DNA from: an uncultured bacterium
GTDB lineage: Bacteria; Patescibacteriota; Microgenomatia; UBA1400; UBA12108
DNA: 44,949 nucleotides
Direction of reading: 5' to 3'
Assembly: GCA_903945195.1 (NCBI GenBank)
Contig: CAJAUT010000010.1
Span: 1 to 44,949 of the forward strand
The notes under the pieces are model-generated. The model saw only the letters and a list, made by a program, of their open reading frames with translations, did not search any database and was not told the DNA's origin. How positions within the stretch are numbered: position 1 is the stretch's first letter; every line of letters starts with the position of its first letter. A program made the position numbers and the translations under genes. Shown piece after piece: positions 1 to 29,137 of this stretch.

Positions 1-867
1 AGATAAAAGCGCATCCACATTACCTCCCAGTTCTAGCACTTCTATTTCTGCTTCCTTCACTTTCCCCACCTGTAAATTACTAGCAATTCTAGTCAAAGGA
101 GTTTTAAACTCATGTGAAATATTTTCCGTAATCTGTCTTTCTCTTTTATGATGTTCTCGTAATTTAATTATTAAATTATTTATAGCTTTAGTAACAACAG
201 AAACTTCATGGTCCATGAGATGAGAATCTGCAATCACCTGCATAGATTCATGATCGATATTTTCCAAATGTTCTACCAATTTTGTCAGGGGGGTTGTGAC
301 TCGTTTAACCATAAAATACGCAAATATTAGTGAGATAGTCCACGCCACTGGGAAAATTATCAATATAACTATTCCTATAGTTTGTTTAAGTATTTCTATC
401 TCACTATTTTTTTTAATCATGCGCATATAGCCAAACACTTCATTTCCAGCCCGAATTGGCACAGTATAAGTATCAAACAAACCATATCCAGGGATTACAA
501 TATCCATATATTTTGGGCTGGCAGATTTTTCAACAATCAAATTTTCATCTTCTAAATCTTTATAGATTCCATATCTTGCCAAGATTTCTCCCTTATCATC
601 AATTATGATTGCAGACAAATCTTTTGCACGCAAAGTTACTCCAAGAGTCTGATTATTTGAGAACTCTTTTTGTAATATCTTTTTATCTACTACTGTCAAA
701 TTTTCAGAAATTACATTGTTGACATTGTTGATGAGATCATCTTTTACATGTTGTTCTGTGTGTACAAAGATTCCCGTTGCCAATCCAGTAGTAGCCAATG
801 CTACAGCAATCGTAGTCAGTACTACTATCCCAATACTCAATTTTTTCGCAAATCTTACTTGTCCCAT
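1..867 (-). CDS. Sensor histidine kinase, 3' end cut by window edge
   Basis: This is a membrane histidine kinase of which only the first 289 residues are visible. I translated it by hand from the complement because it runs off the window. An N-terminal membrane segment (about residues 10-30) is followed by an extracytoplasmic sensing region, a second membrane segment (about 180-200), a HAMP-like stretch beginning VTTPLTKLVEHLEN, and an H-box ISHEFKTPLTR with the phospho-accepting His near residue 243. The ATPase domain lies beyond position 1. The start overlaps the stop of the response regulator by 13 nt, so the two are co-translated and should form a cognate pair. What it senses is unknown; its position downstream of the redox genes suggests control of that module. 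Confidence 0.9.
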   Translation of the reverse strand, partial: MGQVRFAKKLSIGIVVLTTIAVALATTGLATGIFVHTEQHVKDDLINNVNNVISENLTVVDKKILQKEFSNNQTLGVTLRAKDLSAIIIDDKGEILARYGIYKDLEDENLIVEKSASPKYMDIVIPGYGLFDTYTVPIRAGNEVFGYMRMIKKNSEIEILKQTIGIVILIIFPVAWTISLIFAYFMVKRVTTPLTKLVEHLENIDHESMQVIADSHLMDHEVSVVTKAINNLIIKLREHHKRERQITENISHEFKTPLTRIASNLQVGKVKEAEIEVLELGGNVDALLS

Positions 868-1517
868 ATCACATATCCTTTTCCACGGACTGTATTTATC
901 AAATCATTTCCCAGTTTTTGTCGTAGATATCGTATATGTACATCCACTGTATTTGAAAAAAGATCTACTTCTTCATTCCATACATGGGTCAATATATCTA
1001 TTCTCTCTACTATCTTTCCACGATTAGCAAGTAAATATTCAAGCACCCCGTATTCTTTCGGAGACAATGTAATTGTTTCACCTTTATATTTCACCTCTCT
1101 CGTATTTGAATCAATTACAACTTTTCCAACCGATACAATAGGGTGTACAGCAATTTTTTTTCTTCTTCTCAGTAGTGCTCTTACGCGTGCAAGTAACACT
1201 GTGCTATCAAATGGTTTAGGTAGATAATCATCAGCTCCAGCATCAAGTCCAGCAATAATATCATCAGAACTATTTTTAGCAGTAAGCATAAGAGAGGGAA
1301 TTGACAAATCATTGGAACGAGCAATTTTTACTACCTCCATTCCGTCCCCATCAGGCAGTCTTCTGTCGCAAATCAAGAGATCATATTCATCAGTGAGCAA
1401 TTTTTCTATACCATCTTCTACGGACGATGCAAGGTCTGTCACATACGTTTCTCTCTCTAGTAAGAGCTTCAAATTATCAGCAATTAGTTCATCATCTTCT
1501 ATCAGTAAAATCTTCAT
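855..1517 (-). CDS. OmpR/PhoB-family response regulator
   Basis: A 220-residue two-domain response regulator. The receiver domain (about 1-115) has the acidic pair EDD at 7-9, the phospho-acceptor Asp in LLICDRRLPDGDG and the Lys in YLPKPFD. The C-terminal winged-helix DNA-binding domain (about 125-218) has the family signature with ITLSPKEYGVLEYL and the final VRGKGYVI. It precedes and overlaps the kinase gene. A TATAAT hexamer lies 7 nt before its ATG, inside the stop region of the cytochrome b5-like gene, so it may have its own leaderless promoter as well as read-through from the redox operon. OmpR-type regulators bind 11-bp direct repeats, and such a repeat is present at 4054-4075. Confidence 0.95.
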   Translation of the reverse strand: MKILLIEDDELIADNLKLLLERETYVTDLASSVEDGIEKLLTDEYDLLICDRRLPDGDGMEVVKIARSNDLSIPSLMLTAKNSSDDIIAGLDAGADDYLPKPFDSTVLLARVRALLRRRKKIAVHPIVSVGKVVIDSNTREVKYKGETITLSPKEYGVLEYLLANRGKIVERIDILTHVWNEEVDLFSNTVDVHIRYLRQKLGNDLINTVRGKGYVIWDK

Positions 1518-1524
1518 ATTTACT

Positions 1525-1530
1525 ATTATA
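1525..1530 (-). promoter_or_regulatory. -10 hexamer (TATAAT) of the regulator-kinase pair
   Basis: The consensus TATAAT is read on the minus strand and ends 7 nt before the regulator ATG at 1517. It overlaps the TAA stop of the upstream b5-like gene. No convincing -35 is seen. The spacing would make the transcript start at or next to the ATG. Confidence 0.55.
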
Positions 1531-2014
1531 TCTTGTATCTAGTCATCCAACTAATATTGTGTCTAGGTGAGGCACCACTAAATATACTGGACATATCAGT
1601 TCCACACTTAAATACATTTCCACCAGAATGTGATTTAACCAGCGAAGTTATGTTGTAAGACGATCCATTTATTGTCACGATGCAACCGGTTGCCACAGGA
1701 GTTGCAGTAGCGGCAGGAGTAGCAGCAACAGTAGGAGTTGGGGTAGCAGTGGCAGCTGTTGTGGGTTTTGGCGTTGCAGTAGTCGTAGTAGCTACTGGTT
1801 TTAAAGTCGGAGTAGTTGTAGTTCCAGCAGGTTTTGGCGTACTAGTTGATATAGGCACGGGAGATTTCACAAACACTGTCTGATTATCCAGCGCATTAGT
1901 TGTAGAAACTGGTACGCTACTAGGCACAGGCCTTGATGCCCCGTACTTTACTAGCCCCATCACAAGGAATGAGTTTAGTATTGTCATAGTAATCAAAATT
2001 TTAATTATTTTCAT
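1526..2014 (-). CDS. Secreted cytochrome b5-like heme-binding protein
   Basis: A 162-residue exported protein. Residues 1-24 form a signal peptide or membrane anchor. Residues 50-110 are a Pro/Thr/Ala-rich flexible linker. Residues 110-162 resemble a minimal cytochrome b5 fold: IVTINGSSYNIT matches the family's first strands, HSGG at 129-132 matches the HPGG heme-ligand motif, and H152 could be the second ligand. The domain is shorter than a usual b5 (about 53 against 80-90 residues), so heme binding is an inference. Its start overlaps the stop of the flavocytochrome gene by 4 nt (ATGA), indicating translational coupling. It probably acts outside the membrane as an electron acceptor or shuttle. 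Confidence 0.7.
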   Translation of the reverse strand: MKIIKILITMTILNSFLVMGLVKYGASRPVPSSVPVSTTNALDNQTVFVKSPVPISTSTPKPAGTTTTPTLKPVATTTTATPKPTTAATATPTPTVAATPAATATPVATGCIVTINGSSYNITSLVKSHSGGNVFKCGTDMSSIFSGASPRHNISWMTRYKI

Positions 2015-3258
2015 TTAAATGCAAAGTCTTCATAAATAATATGTGATCTTTTTATTCCAAGCTCAGCCAGTTGTTCAGCCATAGATTCCATCATCTCTTT
2101 TGGGCCACAAAGCATGTATGTTGCGTTTTTATCTAGTCCAGTCTTTTCAAATATCATCTTCCCAGTCACTCTACCAGATTTTGTCGTCTCACATGGCAAC
2201 CAAACAAATCTAGGATTCCGCATCGCTAGGTTTGCAAAAGGTTCAGTAATCACTTTAGGTGGCAACACTCTCGCACAAAAATACATCTCCACTCGCTGAT
2301 CATCACGCACGGCCTTAGCCATAGACAAAAATGGAGTGATACCTATCCCACCAGCGATCCACACTGCATGCTTAGCATCCTTCATCTTTTCTCCAAATGT
2401 GCCATATGGCCCTTTTACAATTAGCTCAGATCCTGCTTTTAGTTCAGTCAATTTTTCAGTAAAATTTCCAATTACTTTTATACCAACAATTAATTTTTTT
2501 CCATCAATTCCAAGGATCGAAAAGGCATGATCATCTCTTTTTTTACTAGGGATACTAAAAAATCCAAATTGTCCTGGGGAGAAATCGATTGGCGCACCCT
2601 CTGCTTCCATCGAGATTACAAGCAGTTCTCTGTCTCTACCACTCCTGACGATTTTGTACTTTTTAATACCTACAAAATAATAGGCAAATCGTTTGTACAA
2701 AAACGAGATAGTAGCTATAGCACTCCATCCTAGTATCCAGTATCTCAGTGGCATATATCTTGAAGTATCAGAAGATATAAGTACTGCATGAAGTCCGCCA
2801 AATATGATTACAAGCCCCATCCATTCATGACTCCATTTCCAAAATCTATACGGCAGTTTTACATAAATCGTTAGTATTATCAAAAATAGCATGATATATA
2901 AAGAAATGATTCCCATTGTGTAGGCGAGACTTGTACCAGGTAGCAGGTAATACGCAATCATGTTTTCTGGCATTGCCCCAACTATAAGTAGTAGTGCATG
3001 ATTGATCAAAAATACGAGTGCTAGACCACCTAGTATGTGATGAACTTTATATACTATATCTAGCCCACCAAACATTTTCTCTATCACCTTAGCTCGCACT
3101 GCTAGGACAAAAGTCCAGATGAGAGACATGATCCCAAGTAAAGCCATGATCTGTGTACCAGCTTGAGCCAAACCAAAGGCGGGATTTTGAGATTTTGCAA
3201 TCGACCACAATAAAAAAGTAATTAGTTGAGTCGAAACTATTACTATCCATCCAATCAT
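2011..3258 (-). CDS. Ferric-reductase-like transmembrane flavocytochrome
   Basis: A 415-residue NAD(P)H-dependent transmembrane reductase. Residues 1-195 hold about six membrane helices. Histidines at 73/74 and 87 in one helix and 144 and 157 in another fit bis-His heme b ligation, as in the ferric reductase/NADPH oxidase family. Residues 200-290 form an FAD-binding barrel, with HAFSI in place of the usual HPFTI. Residues 296-415 are the nucleotide-binding lobe with AGGIGITPF and a CGP motif (MLCGPKEMM). Electrons would pass from cytoplasmic NAD(P)H through FAD and heme to the outer face, where the two flanking b5-like proteins lie. It overlaps both neighbours by 4 nt. The acceptor (iron, a surface protein or oxygen) cannot be told. 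Confidence 0.9.
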   Translation of the reverse strand: MIGWIVIVSTQLITFLLWSIAKSQNPAFGLAQAGTQIMALLGIMSLIWTFVLAVRAKVIEKMFGGLDIVYKVHHILGGLALVFLINHALLLIVGAMPENMIAYYLLPGTSLAYTMGIISLYIMLFLIILTIYVKLPYRFWKWSHEWMGLVIIFGGLHAVLISSDTSRYMPLRYWILGWSAIATISFLYKRFAYYFVGIKKYKIVRSGRDRELLVISMEAEGAPIDFSPGQFGFFSIPSKKRDDHAFSILGIDGKKLIVGIKVIGNFTEKLTELKAGSELIVKGPYGTFGEKMKDAKHAVWIAGGIGITPFLSMAKAVRDDQRVEMYFCARVLPPKVITEPFANLAMRNPRFVWLPCETTKSGRVTGKMIFEKTGLDKNATYMLCGPKEMMESMAEQLAELGIKRSHIIYEDFAFK

Positions 3259-3629
3259 GGTTTATAGACTCCTACTATCATATATTTTCGTTTAATTATG
3301 TCCCCACCGATTATATTTAGTAGAGCGCTCGAATCTTTGCCTACCAAATCATGGTAGCTTTGATCAGGACCATAAAAATCATTTCTGCCCTCAGAGACGT
3401 CATACACATAGCCGTCCAGTGCTAGATATATTGGGATGTTTGGATCATCTCCATTATATTTTTGTAGCTGCATAGCTGTTATCTGTGGCAAATCACTACT
3501 TACCTGAGCTGGTTGACGAAAGATTTGTTTATATATAAACCAGTCGACTACCAACATCAAGATTAGGGCAGATATTACTATCTTACCTGTCTTCTCGATC
3601 TTCCACTTTTTCAATTTTTTCAGTGTCAT
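3255..3629 (-). CDS. Membrane-anchored MAPR-type cytochrome b5 domain protein
   Basis: A 124-residue protein with one N-terminal membrane segment (about 16-34) and an outside domain. Residues 48-124 match the membrane-associated progesterone receptor branch of cytochrome b5: an MQLQKYNGDD opening, IYLALDGYVYDVSEGR, FYGPDQSYHDLVGKDSS and a final stretch. In this family heme is bound through Tyr; Tyr92 in the SYHDL segment corresponds to the PGRMC1 ligand. The stop overlaps the start of the flavocytochrome gene (ATGA), and the start lies 47 nt inside the acidic protein gene. It is probably the first extracytoplasmic acceptor of electrons from the flavocytochrome. Confidence 0.85.
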   Translation of the reverse strand: MTLKKLKKWKIEKTGKIVISALILMLVVDWFIYKQIFRQPAQVSSDLPQITAMQLQKYNGDDPNIPIYLALDGYVYDVSEGRNDFYGPDQSYHDLVGKDSSALLNIIGGDIIKRKYMIVGVYKP

Positions 3630-4005
3630 GTATTTCGATTTCTTTCACATCTTCATGTTCTAGCTCATCTTGGTCATCATCATCATCACCATCATCATCA
3701 TCAAGTTTTATAACAGGAGCAAATGATGGAGCGATGCTAGGTATAACTATATCATCTTGGATAGAGTCATCTATCTCAGCCTCTACTTCAATCTCTGGTG
3801 TCGAGCTTGGTAAAGGGGTGCTGACAGACAAGGGCGCTGGAGTTGAGGTAGACGAAGGGCTGGGAGTAGGTGTAGACACCTCTGGTACTACAACTTCTTG
3901 ACTACTATTTGCAAACACTTTAAATCCTGCATAGGTACTACTACCTAAAGAGGCAATGATCGCGGTCCCAGTGAGCAAGTTTGTGAGTAATTTATTAGTA
4001 GCCAT
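3583..4005 (-). CDS. Exported acidic, Pro/Ser-rich protein of unknown function
   Basis: A 140-residue first gene of the redox operon with no recognised family. Residues 8-30 are a signal peptide or anchor. Residues 40-72 are a Pro/Ser/Thr-rich linker. Residues 73-140 are strongly acidic, with a run of Asp/Gly-Asp (about 100-112) followed by a Glu/Asp/Lys/His-rich tail. A clear ribosome binding site (AAGGAG) precedes the ATG at 4005. The acidic tract could bind cations such as Ca2+ or iron, which would suit a metal-reducing module, but this is a guess from composition. The 3' end overlaps the MAPR gene by 47 nt in another frame. Confidence 0.75.
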   Translation of the reverse strand: MATNKLLTNLLTGTAIIASLGSSTYAGFKVFANSSQEVVVPEVSTPTPSPSSTSTPAPLSVSTPLPSSTPEIEVEAEIDDSIQDDIVIPSIAPSFAPVIKLDDDDGDDDDDQDELEHEDVKEIEIHDTEKIEKVEDREDR

Positions 4006-7946: not shown

Positions 7947-9614
7947 ATGGACTTAAACACTGCCCTATACGATAGTATTAAATCACTAAATATTATTCCT
8001 GTTAAAAAATTGGATGAATGTCTAGCAGAAGCCACCAATCTCCACAAAGATTTACACTCTATACTCCTCTCCAAAGATCTCATGTCCGACGAAAATATCG
8101 GCAAACTCAAAGCCGATCTATACGGTCTTCCATTTGTACTACTACAACACGAGGCCCTAGATCAAAAGATCGCCAAACTCATCCCACTGGCATATGCCAA
8201 AGAAAACTTCTGTCTAGTCATCAAGCAAGATAAAACTTCTACTACCGTAGCCATTAGTGATGGCAACAATGAAAATTTAAAAAAACAACTTAGTACCAGA
8301 TTTCAGAACAAACTATCCTTAGTTTATTCCACAAAAAGAGATCTCTCCATGGCCCTCAAAATATACGCCGACGATCCCAAATCTACTTTTGACAAACTCT
8401 TATCCTCAGGCGTTGATGCAGCAAAAAAAGAGCCAGATGAACCACCCATCATCCAGATCGTAGATACGATCATCCGCTTTGCCTACGATCGTGGCGCCTC
8501 AGATATCCATATCGAACCAACCTCAAATGACTCGCTTGTGAGATTTAGGGTAGATGGGATGATGCATGATATCGTTTCACTACCAATAGATATCCATCCT
8601 CGCATCGCAACTCGTATCAAAGTGATGGCAAATTTGCGCACAGATGAAAATCAATCAGCCCAAGACGGTAAACTCACGCTCAATCTAGAAGAAGAAAAGC
8701 TGGATGTCCGTGTCTCGCTGGTTCCCATAGTTGAAGGAGAAAGTATCGTGCTTCGCCTACTTGCCGAAAAATCTCGCCAATTCTCACTCTTAGATTTAGG
8801 ACTTTCTACAGAAGATTCTCTAAAAATCGAAGCAGCCCGTAAAAAACCTCATGGCATGATTTTATCGACTGGCCCTACAGGCAGTGGTAAGACCACGACA
8901 CTATATGCCTTACTCAAACTCCTCAACGAAAGATCTGTGACCATCATGACCATCGAAGATCCAGTGGAATATCAGATAGAAGGCATCAACCAAATCCAAG
9001 TTAACAAAGCCACAAATTTGACCTTTGCAGATGGCCTACGAAGCGTGGTTAGACAAGATCCAGATATTATCTTGGTAGGAGAAATTAGAGACAATGAAAC
9101 AGCCGATATCGCGGTCAACTCAGCTATGACAGGTCACCTAGTACTCTCTACTCTCCACACCAACGATGCCTCAACTGCCATCCCTCGCCTCACCGATATG
9201 GGGATAGAACCATTCCTCATTGCCTCGACCCTCAATGTCATTGTAGCTCAACGCTTGGTACGCAAGATCTGCACCCAGTGCAGGACCAGTAGCGAGATAG
9301 AGGTAGACTCACTTTCTACCTATCTATCCAAAGATATCCTTACAAAGCATTTTGGTACAGGCAAGACTAGAGTTTACAAAGGTGCTGGATGTAAATCCTG
9401 CAACAACCTAGGTTATCTTGGCCGCATTGGTATTTTTGAAATCATGAATATGACGGACGAAATCAAAGAAGCGATCACCAAAAAATTAGATGCTGGAGAA
9501 ATCCAAAAATTAGCAATTGCAGCTGGCATGACCACTATGCTCGACGACGGTCTAGCCAAAGTAAAGTCAGGCATTACCACAATCGAAGAAGTGATGAGAG
9601 TCACCACAGAATAA
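7947..9614 (+). CDS. pilB: Type IV pilus extension ATPase PilB/GspE
   Basis: A 555-residue cytoplasmic motor that powers pilin polymerisation. Residues 1-140 form the N-terminal GspE-type domain. Residues 165-270 are the N2 domain with the SDIHIEP motif. Walker A is GPTGSGKTTT (309-318), followed by the Asp box with TIEDPVEYQ, Walker B (DIILVGEIRDNETA) and the His box (GHLVLSTLHTNDA). Two CxxC pairs (CTQC and CKSC) form the zinc site of GspE. It lies in the operon after two receivers and is followed one base later by pilC. No separate PilT retraction ATPase is seen in the window. Confidence 0.97.
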   Translation: MDLNTALYDSIKSLNIIPVKKLDECLAEATNLHKDLHSILLSKDLMSDENIGKLKADLYGLPFVLLQHEALDQKIAKLIPLAYAKENFCLVIKQDKTSTTVAISDGNNENLKKQLSTRFQNKLSLVYSTKRDLSMALKIYADDPKSTFDKLLSSGVDAAKKEPDEPPIIQIVDTIIRFAYDRGASDIHIEPTSNDSLVRFRVDGMMHDIVSLPIDIHPRIATRIKVMANLRTDENQSAQDGKLTLNLEEEKLDVRVSLVPIVEGESIVLRLLAEKSRQFSLLDLGLSTEDSLKIEAARKKPHGMILSTGPTGSGKTTTLYALLKLLNERSVTIMTIEDPVEYQIEGINQIQVNKATNLTFADGLRSVVRQDPDIILVGEIRDNETADIAVNSAMTGHLVLSTLHTNDASTAIPRLTDMGIEPFLIASTLNVIVAQRLVRKICTQCRTSSEIEVDSLSTYLSKDILTKHFGTGKTRVYKGAGCKSCNNLGYLGRIGIFEIMNMTDEIKEAITKKLDAGEIQKLAIAAGMTTMLDDGLAKVKSGITTIEEVMRVTTE

Positions 9615-9615
9615 T

Positions 9616-10668
9616 ATGCTCAAAAATATCAAAGAAACTGACAAGCTCATGTTCACCAAACATTTAGGCGTCATGATCATGGCTGGCATCCCACTCACCG
9701 AAGCTCTCGGAACCCTAGAAAATGATGCCAAATCCCCAAACCTCAAATCCATCATTCACAGTCTCAAAATCCAAATTGAGTCAGGCAAATCATTGTCTTT
9801 AGCACTAGCTCTCCATCCCAAAATTTTTGACAAAGTCTATATCAGCTTAGTTACAATAGGCGAAGAGTCTGGCACGCTAGACACAACCCTCAAATTTTTA
9901 GCCGAGCAACTATCCAAGCTTCATCTTTTAAAGAAAAAAATCCAAGGCGCCATGATGTATCCTTTACTTGTCATCAGCGTCATGTTTGTCATGGGCATAG
10001 GCTTATCTATCTTTGTCCTGCCTAAACTAGTAGATTTTTTTGCAGCCTTCAATCAACAATTACCTCTCTCTACTCGCATTCTCTTAGGCTTCGCCACACT
10101 CATGCGTGATCATGGCATCCTTGTTGTTGCTTCAATTTTTGGGATCATCATAGGTTTCAACTTGCTCATCAAATTACCTCCTATCAAGCGAGTATGGGAT
10201 CGCCTCATTTTCAAGCTTCCGATTTTTGGTGATTTTTTACTAGAATCAAAAATGGCAGAGTTATCTCGCAACATGAGCGTACTTTTAACTAGTGGTGTGC
10301 CCATCCTAGTAGGACTAGGTACCCTTATCGAATCAGAACCAAATCTATATATCAAAGCCAATCTAAATCAATTAGAGGTTGGTCTTTCCAAAGGCAAAAG
10401 TATGGGAGATACGATGAAAGCTTCAAATCTCACAGTCTTCCCTAGCATCTTTAGCAAGATGGTAGCAGTAGGGGAGCGCACCGGCAAATTAGATGAGATG
10501 CTTAGCTATCTTGCCGATTATTACGAAGAAGAAATCGAGACACTTTCCAAAAACCTCACAACCATTTTAGAGCCCATTCTCCTCGTGATAGTGGGGTTAC
10601 TAGTAGGCTTTATGGCAATCGCAATCATAGGTCCAATTTATCAAATAACAGGAAATATAGGAGGTTAA
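9616..10668 (+). CDS. pilC: Type IV pilus inner-membrane platform protein PilC/GspF
   Basis: A 350-residue polytopic membrane protein with two copies of the GspF domain (about 15-135 and 215-340). The repeats share the signature of glycine-rich starts (MIMAGIPLTEAL, LTSGVPILVGL) and GEESG/GERTGKLDEML motifs. Membrane helices are at about 115-145, 165-190 and 320-345. It forms the platform that couples PilB to pilin assembly. It follows pilB almost without gap, and a strong ribosome binding site for the next small ORF overlaps its last codons. Confidence 0.97.
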   Translation: MLKNIKETDKLMFTKHLGVMIMAGIPLTEALGTLENDAKSPNLKSIIHSLKIQIESGKSLSLALALHPKIFDKVYISLVTIGEESGTLDTTLKFLAEQLSKLHLLKKKIQGAMMYPLLVISVMFVMGIGLSIFVLPKLVDFFAAFNQQLPLSTRILLGFATLMRDHGILVVASIFGIIIGFNLLIKLPPIKRVWDRLIFKLPIFGDFLLESKMAELSRNMSVLLTSGVPILVGLGTLIESEPNLYIKANLNQLEVGLSKGKSMGDTMKASNLTVFPSIFSKMVAVGERTGKLDEMLSYLADYYEEEIETLSKNLTTILEPILLVIVGLLVGFMAIAIIGPIYQITGNIGG

Positions 10669-10669
10669 T

Positions 10670-10780
10670 ATGAAAAAAATTAAACTAAATCAATAGGTAG
10701 ATTTTGCAGTAGTCGCTTTGACTATCATTCTCTTTGGCTCTGCAATTGCTTATATCATGATCACACTTATTCAAAGATGA
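10670..10780 (+). pseudogene. Small membrane protein ORF interrupted by one TAG
   Basis: A GGAGG site and ATG at 10670 open a frame that meets TAG as codon 9 and then continues without another stop for 27 codons to TGA at 10780. That TGA overlaps the next gene's ATG in the ATGA style used throughout this operon. Read through the TAG, the product is 36 residues with a single membrane helix (ALTIILFGSAIAYIMITLIQ). The ribosome binding site, uninterrupted downstream frame and operon-style junction imply a gene that is or was real. The TAG may be a recent mutation, a sequencing error or a suppressed codon. TAG ends other genes here normally, so general recoding is unlikely. Confidence 0.6.
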
Positions 10781-11202
10781 AAAAACTAGGGTTTACTCTC
10801 ATCGAACTACTTATCGTGGTCTCACTTATCATCATAATTGGTACCATGACTGCTCCCTTTGCTAGTGGATTTTTGATTCGGGTATATCAAGAATCCACGG
10901 TAAATTCACTTATCTCATCACTCCATAGAGCACAGAGTTTGTCACTCGATGGCAAGGGTAGTGGTGTCTGGGGAATCTGTAAAACAGGCAACTTTATTAG
11001 GGTCTATCAAGGTTCTTGTGCTAGCCCTACGATCAAAGAAGACTCAAGCATCCCTTCTACAGTCGCGGTCACAGGATTAAACGATATTACTTTTTCAAGG
11101 TTAAATGGAGAGCCTAGCTCTGCCCTAGCCATATCTATAGTTAGTGGCGCCGGCACCAAAAATATTACGCTAAATGAGATTGGAGTCGTAGATGTTAATT
11201 AA
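10777..11202 (+). CDS. Prepilin-like minor pilin, FimT/GspH type
   Basis: A 141-residue protein beginning MKKLGFTLIELLIVV, the class III/type IV prepilin signal: cleavage after Gly5, N-methyl-Phe and Glu at mature position 5. A long hydrophobic helix runs to about residue 30. The C-terminal domain (about 35-141) is small and beta-rich with two Cys that could pair. Its place as the first of a run of pilin-like genes resembles FimT/GspH in minor pilin clusters, which prime pilus assembly. It overlaps the next gene by 11 nt. Confidence 0.88.
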   Translation: MKKLGFTLIELLIVVSLIIIIGTMTAPFASGFLIRVYQESTVNSLISSLHRAQSLSLDGKGSGVWGICKTGNFIRVYQGSCASPTIKEDSSIPSTVAVTGLNDITFSRLNGEPSSALAISIVSGAGTKNITLNEIGVVDVN

Positions 11203-12973
11203 GAGGGCATTTGGAATTATAGAGATTGTTGTTGCCTTAGGCTTGTTTGCTGTCGTGGGCGTCACTGGCATCACTATGGTCTTACATAGCTTTACCGCCA
11301 ACAGGTTAGGCAATGAACAAACCCTTGCTAGCAACACAACTAGTTCTGGCCTAGAAATAGTCAGAAATATCAAAACTCAAAACTGGAGCAATCTTGTAGC
11401 AGGCACCTACGGACTCAAAAATACTGCCGGGATCTGGTCACTCTCGACACTCCCTGAAACTTGGGACAAATACACTCGCACTGTTACGATTGAAGATAGT
11501 CAAAGAGACGGGCTCGGCAACATCGTAGACTCAGGTGGGTCGGCTGACCCAAACACAAAAAAAGTCACAGTTTCAACTGGTTGGAATGTAGGAGCTGCCC
11601 GCAACAACTCAGTCATCTTATCTGAATATTTCACCAATTTTGGCAAAACCATTTCAAGCACCGGTGATGCCATTATCGCTTGGGGTGACACAACTACTAC
11701 CCCCAAATGGAATACATACTCAAACACGACAGACTTGTTTGGCACCAAATCAAATCTAGTAGTAGGGGAGAGTGCCAGAAACATGATAGTCAAAACCTCA
11801 CCCACGAAAACAGAAGCACTAGCTGCTTATACCAGTGCTACCGGATTACTTCATGTGCAGTGCTACAACGGCACTACGTGGACCGAAGATTTCACTACCA
11901 CAGTCGGAGGCACTGGCACTACCCGTCGTTTTGATATCGGATTTGAAAAAACTACAGGCGATGCTATGATCGTCTACTCTACAAATACAACTACCACAAA
12001 TGAGCTAGCCTATCGCACCAAAGCTGGCTCATCAGGTTGTGGAGCGGCCAATTGGACCGCAGCCACCAATCTCAATCCAGTTCGTACCTCAGGAATCGTT
12101 CACTGGGTTAGACTAGAGTCAGATCCTAGGTCAGGTCAAAATATTTTAGGACTTGCTTGGGCCGATGCTCAAAGTGATCTCTCAGCTATGATGTGGAACG
12201 GGACGTCATGGGTAAACGAGCCCACAGCTGTCTCAGAAAATTCTCTAGATATCGTCGTAGTCGGTCAAGACGAAGAAACCTTTGATCTCACCTTTGAATC
12301 AATTACAGGCAACCTAATGTTAGTTTGGGGCAGGACTGTCAGCAACAATACAAACGGGGTCAGATATCGCCAGTGCACAGGTGGCAACGCTACATGCACT
12401 TGGAGCACAGTTACTACTCCTCCAACCTTTTTAGATGATGCCACAAATCTAGATATTTCTTCAAATTTATCAAGCAATGAAATTATTTTTGCTTCTGTAG
12501 GGACCAATCAAAGCGATCTGCAAGTAGGATACTGGAATGGCAGTAGCTGGACAAATACCGCAAACCTAGACACTAGCTGCACCACTCCATTTGCAGGCTC
12601 TCAAAAAGTTGCGACAGGCTGGCTAAAGTCAGGCGCGACTACTCGCAGCATCATAGTTTATGATGACCAAGGTTCAGGTAGGATTAATTGGTATGTCGGC
12701 AACGCTGGTAGCTTTACTGCACAAACAGACTTCCTCCAAAATCCTGTATTTTCTACCAATCAAGGTTATTACAAAATCATCATGGATCCCAAAAATTCTG
12801 ATAGGTTTATGTTTGTAGTGGTAGATGCCTCAAATGATCTTTTTGCCAAAAGACTTGTCATGAATGCCACTCCCACTTTTACCTGGACCAATAGCGATAG
12901 CGCTGCAGCCCTAGAGCTCAATTTATCACAAAATATTGCTGGACCATTTAGTTTAGATTATTGGAGAAACTAA
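11192..12973 (+). CDS. Very large pilin-like protein with adhesin-like C-terminal domain
   Basis: A 593-residue protein with a prepilin-like start (LIKRAFGIIEIVVALGLFAVV, with Glu at the +5 place) and one N-terminal helix. Ordinary minor pilins are 130-250 residues; here the extra 400 or so residues are Thr/Asn/Trp-rich with recurring NGTSW-, WNGSSW- and AYRTKAG-type units about every 40-60 residues, suggesting a beta-propeller or repeated beta domain. By position it matches PilV/GspI. Tip-located PilV or PilY1-like proteins often bind surfaces, so an adhesive pilus tip is a reasonable inference. It overlaps genes on both sides. Confidence 0.82.
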   Translation: MLIKRAFGIIEIVVALGLFAVVGVTGITMVLHSFTANRLGNEQTLASNTTSSGLEIVRNIKTQNWSNLVAGTYGLKNTAGIWSLSTLPETWDKYTRTVTIEDSQRDGLGNIVDSGGSADPNTKKVTVSTGWNVGAARNNSVILSEYFTNFGKTISSTGDAIIAWGDTTTTPKWNTYSNTTDLFGTKSNLVVGESARNMIVKTSPTKTEALAAYTSATGLLHVQCYNGTTWTEDFTTTVGGTGTTRRFDIGFEKTTGDAMIVYSTNTTTTNELAYRTKAGSSGCGAANWTAATNLNPVRTSGIVHWVRLESDPRSGQNILGLAWADAQSDLSAMMWNGTSWVNEPTAVSENSLDIVVVGQDEETFDLTFESITGNLMLVWGRTVSNNTNGVRYRQCTGGNATCTWSTVTTPPTFLDDATNLDISSNLSSNEIIFASVGTNQSDLQVGYWNGSSWTNTANLDTSCTTPFAGSQKVATGWLKSGATTRSIIVYDDQGSGRINWYVGNAGSFTAQTDFLQNPVFSTNQGYYKIIMDPKNSDRFMFVVVDASNDLFAKRLVMNATPTFTWTNSDSAAALELNLSQNIAGPFSLDYWRN

Positions 12974-13467
12974 TGAAAAAAGGCAACACACTCATAGAAC
13001 TCATCATCTATATCACTATCGTTTCTGGGATAGGTATGGCTAGTGTATTATTCGTCACAAATATAATCACAGGCAGAGTCAAATCATCTCTAGAAGAAAA
13101 CGTCATCCACAACATGAGGCTTTCCACCCGTCGCATAACTCAGGAGATCAGACAAGCCACCGCCATCACTTCAATATCTTCGACCGACCTCTGCCTTGCC
13201 TCACCCACAATCGGTAGAAATCCCACTCGCATTTATTTGTCTTCAAATAGACTCTATCTAGGATTTGGCGGTAGCTGCGCAAGCTCTACTACTTCTTACC
13301 CACTCACCAGTACAAACGTGACCGTCTCAAATCTAGTCTTTTCAAACAGCACAACTGGTCTCGCGAAAACGATAGATTATACTTATAAAATATCAGGCAA
13401 CAATGTTGTCGGACGACAGGAATGGTTATATGACACCACAGCTTCTATGTCAGCCAGCATCCGTTAA
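12961..13467 (+). CDS. Prepilin-like minor pilin, PilW/GspJ type
   Basis: A 168-residue protein beginning MEKLMKKGNTLIELIIYITIV; the likely start is the second Met (12973), giving MKKGNTLIELI with cleavage after Gly and Glu at +5. A hydrophobic helix of about 25 residues is followed by a domain with MRLSTRRITQEIRQA, a segment common in PilW/GspJ proteins, and two Cys. It overlaps the large pilin upstream and the PilX-like gene downstream. Role: minor pilin of the tip-priming complex. Confidence 0.85.
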   Translation: MEKLMKKGNTLIELIIYITIVSGIGMASVLFVTNIITGRVKSSLEENVIHNMRLSTRRITQEIRQATAITSISSTDLCLASPTIGRNPTRIYLSSNRLYLGFGGSCASSTTSYPLTSTNVTVSNLVFSNSTTGLAKTIDYTYKISGNNVVGRQEWLYDTTASMSASIR

Positions 13468-13834
13468 AAGCGGCTACGCGGCCATCATCTCGATCATAGT
13501 GATACTAGCTGTCATTGTCACTGTGGGACTTGCTGTCACTACTTTATCTATCGGCAACGCACAGATGTCTCTAGGCCAAAGCAAAGGGGAGGGGGCACTA
13601 TCTTTAGTCAATTCCTGCATCGAAGACACGCTCGTCAAGTACAACGATACTGGTCTAGTCCCTCTCTCTATCACGACACCTCTTGGCAGTTGCACAAATA
13701 CTCTAGATAGCTCAACTCCCACCTCTTCAACTTTTACCACTTCAGCCACCGTAGGCAATTATTCAAAAAGTATCCAAGTCGCAGCAAATCGTACAACAAG
13801 CGTAAATGTAGTAAACTGGATACAAACCAATTAA
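13430..13834 (+). CDS. Prepilin-like minor pilin, PilX/GspK type
   Basis: A 134-residue protein if started at ATG 13430, preceded by AGGA; an upstream ATG at 13403 is possible but lacks this. The segment KSGYAAIISIIVILAVIVTVGLAV is an N-terminal helix after a Gly, as in PilX/GspK proteins, whose mature position 5 need not be Glu. The rest is Thr/Ser-rich with two Cys. The start lies 38 nt within the preceding gene in another frame. The order FimT, PilV, PilW, PilX, pilin is kept. Confidence 0.78.
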   Translation: MTPQLLCQPASVKSGYAAIISIIVILAVIVTVGLAVTTLSIGNAQMSLGQSKGEGALSLVNSCIEDTLVKYNDTGLVPLSITTPLGSCTNTLDSSTPTSSTFTTSATVGNYSKSIQVAANRTTSVNVVNWIQTN

Positions 13835-13835
13835 T

Positions 13836-14294
13836 ATGAACAGATCAATTAAAAAAGGTTTCACGCTAATAGAAATGCTCGTTGTAGTATCCATTATCGC
13901 GATATTGATTGTAGTAGTTTTTGAATCTCTAGATCCGCTTCGTCAATTTAGGGAAGCCCGAAATGCTAGACGCTGGAGTCATATAAACTCTATCTCTATT
14001 GCCACCTATCGCTACATTATAGAAAAAGGAGTTTATCCAACAGGAGTAGGCGAACAAAAACGTCAAATTGGTACTAGTAAAACTGGATGCAGCTCAAATT
14101 GTCCAGGCGCAGTAGATACTTGTATAGACCTAATTAGCACTATTTCAGATTATTTGCCCATAATGCCTATTGAAACAAATGGTGGAACGCAGGACAAAAC
14201 TGGATATGCAATTAGCAAGACAGGGGTCAACAATGTTATAACTGTAACTGCATGTTCACCAGAAAATGGTGCCAATATTTTTGTCATGAGATAA
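13836..14294 (+). CDS. Type IV pilin-like protein
   Basis: A 152-residue prepilin: KKGFTLIEMLVVVSIIAI with cleavage after Gly9 and Glu at +5. After the helix comes ESLDPLRQFREARNARRWSHINSI, closely matching the pilin at 15312. Four or five Cys in the C-terminal half may form disulfides. It begins two bases after the previous stop and has no clear ribosome binding site, so it is probably made in smaller amounts than the 15312 pilin. An assembly-initiating pilin is likely. Confidence 0.9.
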   Translation: MNRSIKKGFTLIEMLVVVSIIAILIVVVFESLDPLRQFREARNARRWSHINSISIATYRYIIEKGVYPTGVGEQKRQIGTSKTGCSSNCPGAVDTCIDLISTISDYLPIMPIETNGGTQDKTGYAISKTGVNNVITVTACSPENGANIFVMR

Positions 14295-14298
14295 AACT

Positions 14299-15303
14299 AT
14301 GTTATTTGGCTCAAGCAAAATAATCATCTACGTAGGCTCAAACCATTTGGTAGTTGGCGATTGTCGTGGCAAAAAACCAGTTTTTTTCCAAATAGATTCC
14401 ACTCCAGATTCGCTCGAATCTTTTGAAAAAATCATCGAAAAATATCCCAAATCAAATTTCAAAATCATCTTAGGTTCAGATGTTTCATACACTGTTTCTT
14501 GGCCGCAAACAGACTCAATTCCTAACAGATCCCTTATTAAAACAGAATTGGCAAAATATATTCCAGAAGATTTTGAGGACAATCAATTTGACTGGAAGCT
14601 AGACAAACAAAAAAACGTAGAGGCAATCGTAGCTACTGGCACTCTCTTCAAAACCTTGACGACCATGTCCTCAAAATATCCAAATATCAGATTTGAAACT
14701 CAATCTTCTATGTCACTTTTGCAAGAAATGGGGGAGTCCAATCTCGCCAAAGAAACAGGAGGGGAGATCTTTTTATATGCCGCCTCAAAAGGCGCCTCTT
14801 CAGGTAGTGATCAATCGGTTCTAGACTTGGATATTGGTCGCTCAACCTCCCCATCAACTATATTATCCAAAAAAACTCTCCACCTCATTCTAGCCATCAT
14901 CATAGTGACGCTATCTAGTATCTTGATTTTAAATATGATAATCCCAAAATCAAATACTCCTCAAACTACTACTCCACTTGCCACGCCCACCCCCACACCA
15001 TCTGTAGCTCCCACAAAAGATATTGGGTCATACAAAGTGAGTGTCCAAAATGGCACCAAGATAGATGGGCTTGCCTCTACCACCAAAGAGTCTCTTTTAT
15101 CCCTAGGCTTTACGCAAGTTTCAACAGAAAACTATAGTACTGGCAGTGCCACAACCAAAGTGATTCTCAAGGAGGCCTTGCCAGAAGAAATCCAACAAAA
15201 AATTATAGCTATACTAACTAATAAACTACCAGATATTTCTCTGAGTACGGTTGACATAAATATTAGCGACAATGATATAGTTATATTATTAGGAGAAAAA
15301 TAG
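14299..15303 (+). CDS. GspL/PilM-like membrane protein with C-terminal LytR_C domain
   Basis: A 334-residue protein. Residues 1-185 form a cytoplasmic region with weak resemblance to PilM/GspL actin-like folds (short beta strands, SWPQTDSIPNRSLIKTELAKYIPEDF is typical of that group). A membrane helix lies at about 195-215, followed by a Pro/Thr linker (220-240). Residues 245-334 are a LytR_C-type domain (KVSVQNGTKIDGLASTT ... LLSLGF), a fold found after LytR-CpsA-Psr enzymes. PilM normally links the motor to PilN/PilO. Here the outer part is replaced by a probable wall-associated domain, and no pilN or pilO is present. Assignment of the N-terminal half is tentative. Confidence 0.7.
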   Translation: MLFGSSKIIIYVGSNHLVVGDCRGKKPVFFQIDSTPDSLESFEKIIEKYPKSNFKIILGSDVSYTVSWPQTDSIPNRSLIKTELAKYIPEDFEDNQFDWKLDKQKNVEAIVATGTLFKTLTTMSSKYPNIRFETQSSMSLLQEMGESNLAKETGGEIFLYAASKGASSGSDQSVLDLDIGRSTSPSTILSKKTLHLILAIIIVTLSSILILNMIIPKSNTPQTTTPLATPTPTPSVAPTKDIGSYKVSVQNGTKIDGLASTTKESLLSLGFTQVSTENYSTGSATTKVILKEALPEEIQQKIIAILTNKLPDISLSTVDINISDNDIVILLGEK

Positions 15304-15311
15304 GAGGAACT

Positions 15312-15776
15312 ATGCCCAAATTAAAGAAAGGGTTTACATTAATTGAGCTACTGGTCGTGATAGGTATTATCGCGCTACTATCTGTCGTAGTCTTTGTAGC
15401 TCTTGATCCAGTCAAGCGCTTTGCCGATGCCCGCAACGCTACGCGCTATACCGACGTCAACAACATCCTTACAGCCGTACATGAGTATATCGTAGACAAC
15501 AAAGGAGCTCTCCCATCAGGACTGACCACTAGCATGGCAGCCACCCAATTAGGATCGTGCGTTTCAGGTGGAGCCACCTTGTGTACAGGAGCTGCAGCAG
15601 CTTGTGTCAACATAGGTACGCCTCTAGCAAAATATCTCAAGTCCATGCCTATCGACAAAGGCACTGGTGCCACAGCCTCTACTTCTGGTTACTCAGTCAC
15701 AGTTGATGCCAACAATATCGTGACCATCAAGTCATGTATGGCAGAAAACGCAGAAGTAGTCGAAGTTTCTCGCTAA
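15312..15776 (+). CDS. pilA: Probable major type IV pilin
   Basis: A 154-residue prepilin beginning MPKLKKGFTLIELLVVIGIIALLSVVVF, cleaved after Gly7 with Phe at +1 and Glu at +5. VALDPVKRFADARNATRYTDVNNI follows, as in the 13836 pilin. The C-terminal half is Ala/Thr/Ser-rich with four Cys. It has the best ribosome binding site of the pilin genes (AGGAGG 6 nt before ATG), which is the basis for calling it the major subunit. It is the last pilin gene of the operon. Confidence 0.9.
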   Translation: MPKLKKGFTLIELLVVIGIIALLSVVVFVALDPVKRFADARNATRYTDVNNILTAVHEYIVDNKGALPSGLTTSMAATQLGSCVSGGATLCTGAAAACVNIGTPLAKYLKSMPIDKGTGATASTSGYSVTVDANNIVTIKSCMAENAEVVEVSR

Positions 15777-26365: not shown

Positions 26366-29137
26366 CTAGTGTGCCTTATCCACCCCGTAAAACCGGACGC
26401 GGTCACCTTTAAACCTAAGATCAATGGTGCGTAGAGCCCCATTGCGATGTTTGGCAATATTTAGCTTCACACTAGATAGGTCTTCTGCGTCCTCGCGATA
26501 AAGGAACATCACAACGTCCGCATCTTGCTCGATACTCCCAGATTCACGTAGATCAGATAGTTGTGGCGAGCTACCTGCTCCCCTATTTTCGATTGCACGA
26601 GATAGTTGCGACATAGCTACCACAGGGATCTTTAATTCACGAGCCAAGTTTTTCATACCTTGGGAGATCTCGGCCACCTCCTGGACACGATTTTCTAGAT
26701 TGCGGCCCTTTACTAGCTGCAAATAGTCGACAAATATGAGACCCACGTTGTGCTCCGACTTTAAACGTCTGGCTTTAGTTCTCATCTCTAGTACGGAGAT
26801 ACCTGGCGTATCGTCGATATATAGCGGTGCCTCAGCCAGCACTCCCATGGCCTCAGATAATTTTTCAAAATCACTTGGCGTCAGCTTACCTGTCTTTAGT
26901 CTCCATGCATCAATATCCGCTTGCGACACCAGCATACGGTCCACCAGCTCTTCTTTACTCATTTCAAGCGAAAAATATCCTACAGGCACCTTTGCCACCA
27001 CACTTGCATACTGAGCAATATTTAGCGAAAAGGCTGTGTTGTGCACCAAGATATCGCTAGCCACAAAATTGTGCACATCATCTACAGTCAGATCATATAC
27101 ATTTTCCTTGCCTTTTGGCTCAATAGAAACTATTTGGTCAAAAAATACATCACTACTTGCGATCTCTGACAAAATCCTAGACTGTAAAGCCTTCGCAATC
27201 GCTAGTAAAGTATCTCTGCGGAGCTGTCTTTTCCATGCATGGATATTTGCACCTTCATTTTTCCCCATCATTCTCGAAAGCTCAGCCCAAGAAATATCTC
27301 CCTTTTCTTTTTCTACGATCCCCCACACATTAAAAGGCAAAGTGTCATGGGTCCAGTTTTTTGCACTTGATTTTGGCAAGACTATTTTTACGGCTTTATC
27401 CAACTTTTCTTCCTTACCAAAAATTCCTATCTCACTTGCAAAATGCAAAATTTCGCTAGCTCCAAACACTTCTACCTCAAATGAAATTTTGATCTGGTCT
27501 CTATACTTGATCTTCTTTTCTCGCAATTTGGCAATTATCCCAAATCTAAGGAGCAAATGTTTCACTTGCTCTGCCAAGATATAAGAACTAGATGCATAGC
27601 TCAGTCGTACAGTATTATCTTTATTTATCACAACGCTACCATCGCACGCAAAAAGTCGATTCAAAAACAAAGCCATTTTAGATTTTGGAAGTGTAAATAT
27701 TACATTGGGGATAAATTTCTCTAGTGCATTTTTTCCAAATATATCTAGCTCTATCAACCAGTCTGTCAAAGAATTCTTTTGTGCGTCAGGGATTTGGATA
27801 TTTAATACTTTTGATACTAATCTAAAAGTATCACCTGTAGGCATACTCAAAGCATTCACCCACAAACTTACGCTTGCAACGCTTACGTTTAAATTTTTTG
27901 CAAACTGAGCCTGAGACAGTCCTGTGGATTCAAAATGTTCGACCAACTTTTTGGCAAAAACGTCTCTCTGCTGCTGTTTCCATCCCAAATCTTTGCTTGC
28001 AGACACACTTTGAGTCCGACCATTTGAGCTAATATTTTTTACGACCACACCTTCAAATTGAGTTACGTATTTTGCAAAGTCTGACCTAACTTTCTCAGAT
28101 CCATTGGTAAACCTAGGATTCTTATTAGTCAGTCCACCGTCTCCAAGTAAATACGCAAGCGTTGCTACTTTATACTCTTCGAGCTTCGACTCCCCAAAAA
28201 TCTCTATTTTTCTAGGCACTGCGATTCTGTCACCTGGCACAAGCTCCTCCACCCTTTTCCACCCATCAATAGTCAAAAGAGGATGTACTGCAGTAGCTTT
28301 TATTTTGTTGCCTAGATTAGTTTTTACTTCAAATACGGGTTTTACTCCATCATCCAGATAAATGCTCGGATTTCTAAGCTCCATTTTCCAGTGATTATTT
28401 AAGCTCAGCACCTTACCCTTTCCATTCTTTACAAACGCGTCCATCCTCATACGTTCACCAGTCAGAGTATCTACCATCAGCGTGTCTCCAGCCACACACT
28501 TGCCCATGCCGGGCCTCGCTGCCAAAATGATCAGATTTGAGTCCTGCATCCCAGCCAGCGTATTGTCTAGATCAGTAAAGCCAGATGGTACACCCCGCAG
28601 TGCTCCAGATCTTTTAGACAGTTCGTCCAACCTATCAAAACTTTCAGATAGTACGCTGCGAATAGGAATAAACCCCTGCTTGGTACTAGACTGCGACAAA
28701 GAAAATACTTTTTGCTCGGCCGAGTCCAGGATCCCAGCTATATCACTACCCTCATCAAACGACATCTCTATCATCGAAGCCGAGTCAGAGATCAGTCTGC
28801 GTCTTGTGTAATACCCCTGGATGATCTCCCCGTAGTGGCGGATATTGGCCGAGCTTGGCACCCCTTCCACAAGCGTCGAGATATAAGACACTCCACCCAC
28901 AGCGTCCAGCAGTTTCATAGACTTGAGTTTTTGTGGCAAGGTCACTAGGTCTATCGGTTCGCGCGACTCAAAGAGCTTGATCATTGCTTCAAAGATATCG
29001 CCGTGTTTAGTTTGATAAAAATGTTCTGGTTTTAGAAATTCAGAGATTTGTACGATAGCGTCTTTGTCGATCAGGATTGATCCCAGCACCGACATTTCTG
29101 CATCATCACTATGTGGGGGAACTTTCTGCACTGCCAT
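26366..29137 (-). CDS. dnaB: Replicative DNA helicase DnaB, interrupted by an intein
   Basis: A 923-residue precursor. The N-terminal domain (1-150) starts VPPHSDDAEMSVLGSIL as in DnaB. The RecA-like helicase core carries Walker A split by an intein: ARPGMGK ends at residue 213, the intein runs from Cys214 to Asn700, and TAFSLNIA follows at 701. After splicing the helicase is 436 residues, the usual size. Later motifs are IFVDYLQLV (Walker B), MSQLSR and the final REDAED and LNIAKHRNG. TAGAAT ends 6 nt before the ATG, suggesting a leaderless mRNA. Confidence 0.97.
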   Translation of the reverse strand: MAVQKVPPHSDDAEMSVLGSILIDKDAIVQISEFLKPEHFYQTKHGDIFEAMIKLFESREPIDLVTLPQKLKSMKLLDAVGGVSYISTLVEGVPSSANIRHYGEIIQGYYTRRRLISDSASMIEMSFDEGSDIAGILDSAEQKVFSLSQSSTKQGFIPIRSVLSESFDRLDELSKRSGALRGVPSGFTDLDNTLAGMQDSNLIILAARPGMGKCVAGDTLMVDTLTGERMRMDAFVKNGKGKVLSLNNHWKMELRNPSIYLDDGVKPVFEVKTNLGNKIKATAVHPLLTIDGWKRVEELVPGDRIAVPRKIEIFGESKLEEYKVATLAYLLGDGGLTNKNPRFTNGSEKVRSDFAKYVTQFEGVVVKNISSNGRTQSVSASKDLGWKQQQRDVFAKKLVEHFESTGLSQAQFAKNLNVSVASVSLWVNALSMPTGDTFRLVSKVLNIQIPDAQKNSLTDWLIELDIFGKNALEKFIPNVIFTLPKSKMALFLNRLFACDGSVVINKDNTVRLSYASSSYILAEQVKHLLLRFGIIAKLREKKIKYRDQIKISFEVEVFGASEILHFASEIGIFGKEEKLDKAVKIVLPKSSAKNWTHDTLPFNVWGIVEKEKGDISWAELSRMMGKNEGANIHAWKRQLRRDTLLAIAKALQSRILSEIASSDVFFDQIVSIEPKGKENVYDLTVDDVHNFVASDILVHNTAFSLNIAQYASVVAKVPVGYFSLEMSKEELVDRMLVSQADIDAWRLKTGKLTPSDFEKLSEAMGVLAEAPLYIDDTPGISVLEMRTKARRLKSEHNVGLIFVDYLQLVKGRNLENRVQEVAEISQGMKNLARELKIPVVAMSQLSRAIENRGAGSSPQLSDLRESGSIEQDADVVMFLYREDAEDLSSVKLNIAKHRNGALRTIDLRFKGDRVRFYGVDKAH
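27038..28498 (-). mobile_element. DnaB intein with LAGLIDADG endonuclease
   Basis: A 487-residue protein-splicing element inserted in the Walker A loop between GK and T. It starts CVAGDTLMVD (block A), has block B with TAVHPLLTIDGWKRVEELVPGD and ends with VYDLTVDDVHNFVASDILVHN followed by Thr. Two LAGLIDADG motifs are visible (TLAYLLGDGG at 326-335 and LNRLFACDGSV at 492-502), so a homing endonuclease may be active. Between and after them are two helix-turn-helix-like segments (LSQAQFAKNLNVSVASVSLWV at 407-427 and ISWAELSRMMGKNEGANIHAW at 615-635), which could add DNA contacts. Confidence 0.93.

Follow-up and report, generated by a model that had tools for sequence, protein, structure and literature searches.

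The window analyzed here, a 44,949-nt stretch of DNA from an uncultured bacterium of the Microgenomatia, is contig C10 of a 34-contig, 1.05 Mb genome. Four genes on its minus strand encode an acidic exported protein (3583..4005, 140 aa), a MAPR-type cytochrome b5 protein that is cytb5MY-like (3255..3629, 124 aa), a flavocytochrome of the FRD/NOX type, hereafter FRD (2011..3258, 415 aa), and a b5 protein on a stalk (1526..2014, 162 aa), with overlaps of 47, 4 and 4 nt between successive genes. An earlier note had described 1526-4005 as a module of four genes overlapping by 4-47 nt. Its coordinates and overlaps are correct and all four genes are present on the minus strand, but the continuation of the module was overlooked. 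The gene for an OmpR/PhoB-type response regulator (855..1517, minus strand; Response_reg 2.5e-26, Trans_reg_C 9.2e-24) lies 8 nt downstream of the stalked b5 gene, a position kept in relatives, and is overlapped by a sensor histidine kinase gene (1..867, minus strand; HisKA 6e-5, PmrB-type model 3.7e-17) that is incomplete and runs off the contig end. The unit has at least six genes and extends into this two-component pair.

The FRD protein had been described as ferric-reductase-like, with four helix histidines plus FAD and NAD motifs, and the searches agree. Pfam Ferric_reduct (4.5e-9) and NAD_binding_1 (3.4e-10) both match above the cut-off, FAD_binding_6/8 and NAD_binding_6 match only below it, and NCBIfam returned generic reductase matches only. 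The best PDB match is the NOX of Streptococcus pneumoniae (SpNOX), over the full length of the protein (1.7e-37 with the single sequence and 4.3e-62 by profile). Residues H73 and H144 align with the inner-haem ligands of SpNOX (H69 and H129) and H87 and H157 with its outer-haem ligands (H83 and H142), and these two histidine pairs on two helices place the protein in the FRD/NOX superfamily as a SpNOX-like member. It also carries a GxGxxP motif (GGIGITP), a CGP motif and a C-terminal aromatic residue (F412). All of these residues, including the four haem histidines, are invariant in seven relatives, while the FAD motif reads HAFS in the window protein and HPFS in the relatives. Compared with SpNOX (PDB 8QT6), the domain order, the four haem histidines and the NAD and C-terminal motifs are the same, whereas SpNOX has HPFS and we know of no b5 or MAPR partner for it. 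The C-terminal Phe of SpNOX lies between the flavin and the nicotinamide (PMC11564096).

The MAPR protein (3255..3629) was expected to be a b5 domain with a membrane anchor, and it matches Pfam Cyt-b5 (PF00173) over the cut-off (E 8e-10), with the plant MAPR At2g24940 and human PGRMC1 as PDB matches and b5-like folds as the best matches of its AlphaFold model (pLDDT 91). In PGRMC1 the haem ligand is Y113 and the propionates are contacted by Y107, K163 and Y164 (PMC4802085). The equivalent residues of the window protein, Y92, Y86, K115 and Y116, are invariant in 12/12 relatives, so that the b5-like fold, the Tyr ligand and the three propionate contacts are shared with PGRMC1 (PDB 4X8Y) and At2g24940 (1T0G). 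The window protein has an N-terminal membrane anchor. In contrast to these proteins, its haem domain is predicted to lie outside the cell, and it lacks the long stretch that precedes K163 and Y164 in PGRMC1, going from LNIIGGDII straight to KRKY where profile alignments show a long gap for both the plant and the human protein. Because this stretch is absent, the protein is better called MAPR-like than MAPR proper, which fits the published name cytb5MY. Another difference is a histidine directly after the predicted ligand Tyr (H93, 3351-3353), which is invariant in 12/12 MAPR-like proteins and is Gly in PGRMC1. Judged from the sequence, H93 is a possible alternative or sixth haem ligand.

The stalked protein (1526..2014) consists of a membrane anchor, a Pro/Thr stalk and a compact C-terminal domain (residues about 106-162) with an HSGG motif and a cysteine pair, C111/C137. 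On its own it falls below the cut-off for Pfam Cyt-b5 (E 0.013), and NCBIfam gave nothing useful for the small proteins of the locus. In the alignment of its family, 18/18 members match Cyt-b5 (best 1.2e-19), and the family profile matches structures of cytochrome b5/b2 (flavocytochrome b2) at 1e-11 to 1e-12. For its AlphaFold model (mean pLDDT 78), b5 folds rank first with a probability of 1.00, at an E of only 0.016. Family profile and fold together assign the domain to the b5 class, and both small proteins that had been read as b5-like, the anchored MAPR protein and this secreted domain on its stalk, keep that assignment.

Among 63 b5 domains linked to FRD genes, the two cysteines are kept in 63/63 and 62/63, the HPGG/HSGG histidine in 62/63 and the second histidine in 61/63. 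From the conserved cysteine pair we infer a disulfide, which would suit an extracytoplasmic location. The best PDB match of this FRD-linked family is cytochrome b558 of Ectothiorhodospira vacuolata (1CXY, 1.8e-21), in which both cysteines are present; the window domain differs from it in being anchored on a stalk, in being shorter and in its HSGG motif. The first histidine is present in the window protein (HSGG), and it is the sole FRD-linked domain with Ser at the second-ligand position, with a His three residues on. A model with two frameshifts enclosing 23 nt (1547-1579, minus strand) brings a His into place and raises the leave-one-out profile score of the domain by 3.9 bits, where nine controls gained at most 2.3 bits. 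This is suggestive of compensating indels in the window gene, either natural or from sequencing. The same genome (G000) encodes two more short anchored b5 proteins with a Cys pair, both away from any FRD (G000:C13:3233-3601, L087, and G000:C23:54032-54415, L100).

The upstream gene (3583..4005) had been described as encoding an acidic exported protein, and the product has an N-terminal hydrophobic segment, a Pro/Thr/Ser stretch and an acidic tail in which D/E make up 23 of the last 50 residues. No significant family match was found in Pfam and NCBIfam profile searches. In six related loci (L023, L070, L071, L075, L078 and L079), the same slot, or a position near it, holds anchored acidic-tailed proteins with one or two b5 domains. 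An N-terminal profile test of this relationship was weakly positive, with 4/6 near the top of 300 shuffles. On this comparison of sequences, the acidic protein is probably a domain-less version of the anchored acidic-tailed b5 protein found in this slot in relatives. In a further locus (L022), the MAPR protein carries a fused segment that is acidic and rich in Pro.

Every MAPR protein examined, and nearly every b5 protein, has a single strong hydrophobic segment close to its N-terminus, which in most follows basic residues; for this reason their haem domains are predicted to be outside (N-in/C-out). The L073 b5 entry was translated from an over-long start, which masks its anchor.

The gene order could have been peculiar to one genome, but MAPR, FRD and b5 genes occur together in the window genome and in ten others, covering families f1, f11, f17, f22, f31 and f41. 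Relatives were recovered with an alignment query; a single-protein scan of genome contigs recovered none. The closest relative locus with the operon is in Microgenomates group bacterium GW2011_GWF2_47_9 (G004), of the same family and with 45% FRD identity. In an even sample of the class (281 genomes), a strong MAPR match (E below 1e-30) was found in nine, and it adjoins an FRD gene in 8/9. Response regulator and histidine kinase genes come next in 6/11 MAPR loci. They also follow in L078 and L079, where a classical-type b5 gene stands after FRD and another b5 protein in the upstream slot. MAPR and FRD are separated by a b5 gene in L070 and L071. In G078, a superoxide dismutase (SOD)-like gene, named by eye (L069 4464-5096), directly precedes the MAPR-FRD-b5 block on its upstream side.

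The FRD-b5 pair itself is more widespread. A co-directional exported b5 gene lies immediately downstream of FRD in 46/96 non-redundant FRD loci, nearly all of them CPR, a count from which contig ends may conceal some neighbours. The pairs are found in Saccharibacteria, Paceibacterota, Peregrinibacteria, Magasanikbacteria, Buchananbacteria and others, and b5 directly downstream of FRD was seen in 0/21 loci from named non-CPR groups. Among the positives is a record that carries the label 'uncultured archaeon', and its FRD groups with the CPR rows. In a quick FRD tree, used only to show clustering of neighbour labels, these labels cluster far beyond shuffles. In two loci (L081 2773-4161 and L084 3086-4402), an exported protein with three tandem b5 domains is encoded about 0.5 kb from an FRD gene, in divergent orientation to it. 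In G046 (L027 6562-7648), the FRD gene is broken into two overlapping frames, through decay or an assembly error; the b5 gene remains, and no MAPR gene was found beside FRD.

The earlier note knew of no described operon with this set of genes, and this has to be withdrawn. A literature search for ferric reductase or b5 in CPR gave one relevant match, PMC10093951, which summarises a reconstructed, ancestral CPR operon from a preprint (Tamarit et al. 2021; bioRxiv 10.1101/2021.11.17.468889). As outlined there, it contains a MAPR-like b5 protein (cytb5MY), two more b5 proteins, a putative ferric reductase and a two-component element, all with membrane segments, as well as TSPO. The window combines the cytb5MY gene with those for the ferric reductase and the two-component pair and is a member of this CPR cytb5MY operon, lacking TSPO. 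TSPO was sought beside the window operon and not found there; a TspO gene lies on another contig (G000:C20:13101-13532). Where the published outline has two further b5 proteins, the window has one (1526-2014), and the upstream slot, b5-bearing in six relatives, holds the acidic protein without a b5 domain. Relative to the operon as summarised in PMC10093951, what is added here is the pairing of FRD with b5 across CPR and the cysteine signature of the pair, a simple handle for finding and testing the system. The operon is also the native setting of prokaryotic relatives of the eukaryotic MAPR/PGRMC proteins.

The rest of the genome, which is 97.6% complete, bears on how the operon could work. 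COX1, cytochrome bd subunit I, the complex I 49-kDa subunit and ferrochelatase gave no match in it, while control genomes matched. As no ferrochelatase was found, haem must come from elsewhere and would be scavenged. With moderate confidence, we read the operon as a two-component-regulated transmembrane electron outlet running from NAD(P)H through FAD and two membrane haems to a surface b5 protein. FRD would oxidise cytosolic NAD(P)H and pass single electrons via FAD to the inner and then the outer b-haem at the outer face of the membrane, from where they would move to the stalked b5 just outside and on to an external acceptor, for which Fe(III), O2, a quinone or a redox protein of a partner cell are candidates. 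The two-component pair would switch the outlet. SpNOX transfers electrons directly and anaerobically to cytochrome c and its outer haem is solvent-exposed (PMC11564096), which makes the step from FRD to b5 plausible. Against this reading, no b5 gene was detected next to FRD at about half of the FRD loci, so FRD can probably also work without b5.

Such a chain, ending on a surface-extended heme protein, was what the earlier note proposed. It fits the haem histidines, the FAD and NAD motifs, the predicted anchors, the adjacency of the genes and the fact that no terminal oxidase was found. Also counted against it is the window b5 domain, which lacks a His at the usual second-ligand position. The part of the proposal that stands less well is the place of the MAPR protein, which may handle haem instead of relaying electrons. 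Tyr-ligated haem is usually poor as a fast electron relay. A five-coordinate Tyr site suits holding or delivering haem better than fast relay and no ferrochelatase was found, so we favour a haem-handling role: the MAPR protein would most likely receive or deliver scavenged haem for the cytochromes of the operon, or else serve as a side electron acceptor.

Other uses of the same proteins have to be weighed. That the nearest solved relative of FRD is SpNOX raises the prospect of a bacterial NADPH oxidase that makes superoxide outside the cell, with the b5 and MAPR proteins as accessory parts or redox sensors; the Fe-SOD in the window genome and the SOD-like gene beside the operon in G078 would go with this. 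We nevertheless think it unlikely, as exported b5 partners are kept across CPR and would be needless for an O2-reducing enzyme, and SpNOX, in whose structure no eukaryotic-type O2 site was found, reduces cytochrome c directly (PMC11564096). A ferric reductase at the cell surface, serving the uptake of iron or haem by reducing Fe(III) or haem outside while the MAPR protein captures haem, would draw on the need to scavenge haem, on the PGRMC1 haem contacts retained by the MAPR protein and on the ferric reductases within the FRD superfamily. Yet the conserved neighbourhood showed no transporter for iron or haem and the stalked b5 would be needless for such an enzyme, which makes this quite improbable to us. 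An MsrPQ-like arrangement, in which b5 would carry electrons to a periplasmic repair enzyme, has precedent in FRD-family proteins that serve repair enzymes (MsrQ/YedZ) and a msrA/msrB-like pair, named by eye, about 3 kb from a more distant FRD of G022 (L026), but the conserved gene set contains no repair enzyme and we give this reading very little weight.

If electrons do flow through the outlet in this way, regulated electron export is available to many CPR bacteria that lack a respiratory chain, which bears on CPR redox balance and partner dependence. A broader idea, speculative and in our judgement doubtful, is that FRD with a Cys-paired exported b5 forms a general CPR surface electron outlet to a partner cell or mineral, in bacteria regarded as living by fermentation only, and that MAPR-type proteins began as its extracytoplasmic haem handlers.

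Elsewhere in the window, a run of pilus-assembly-type genes lies at 7947-15776 (an ATPase and a membrane protein of PilB/PilC-like type and several prepilin-like proteins, named by eye). An ORF of 923 aa at 26366-29137 encodes a DnaB-like replicative helicase with an apparent intein, as read from its sequence only.
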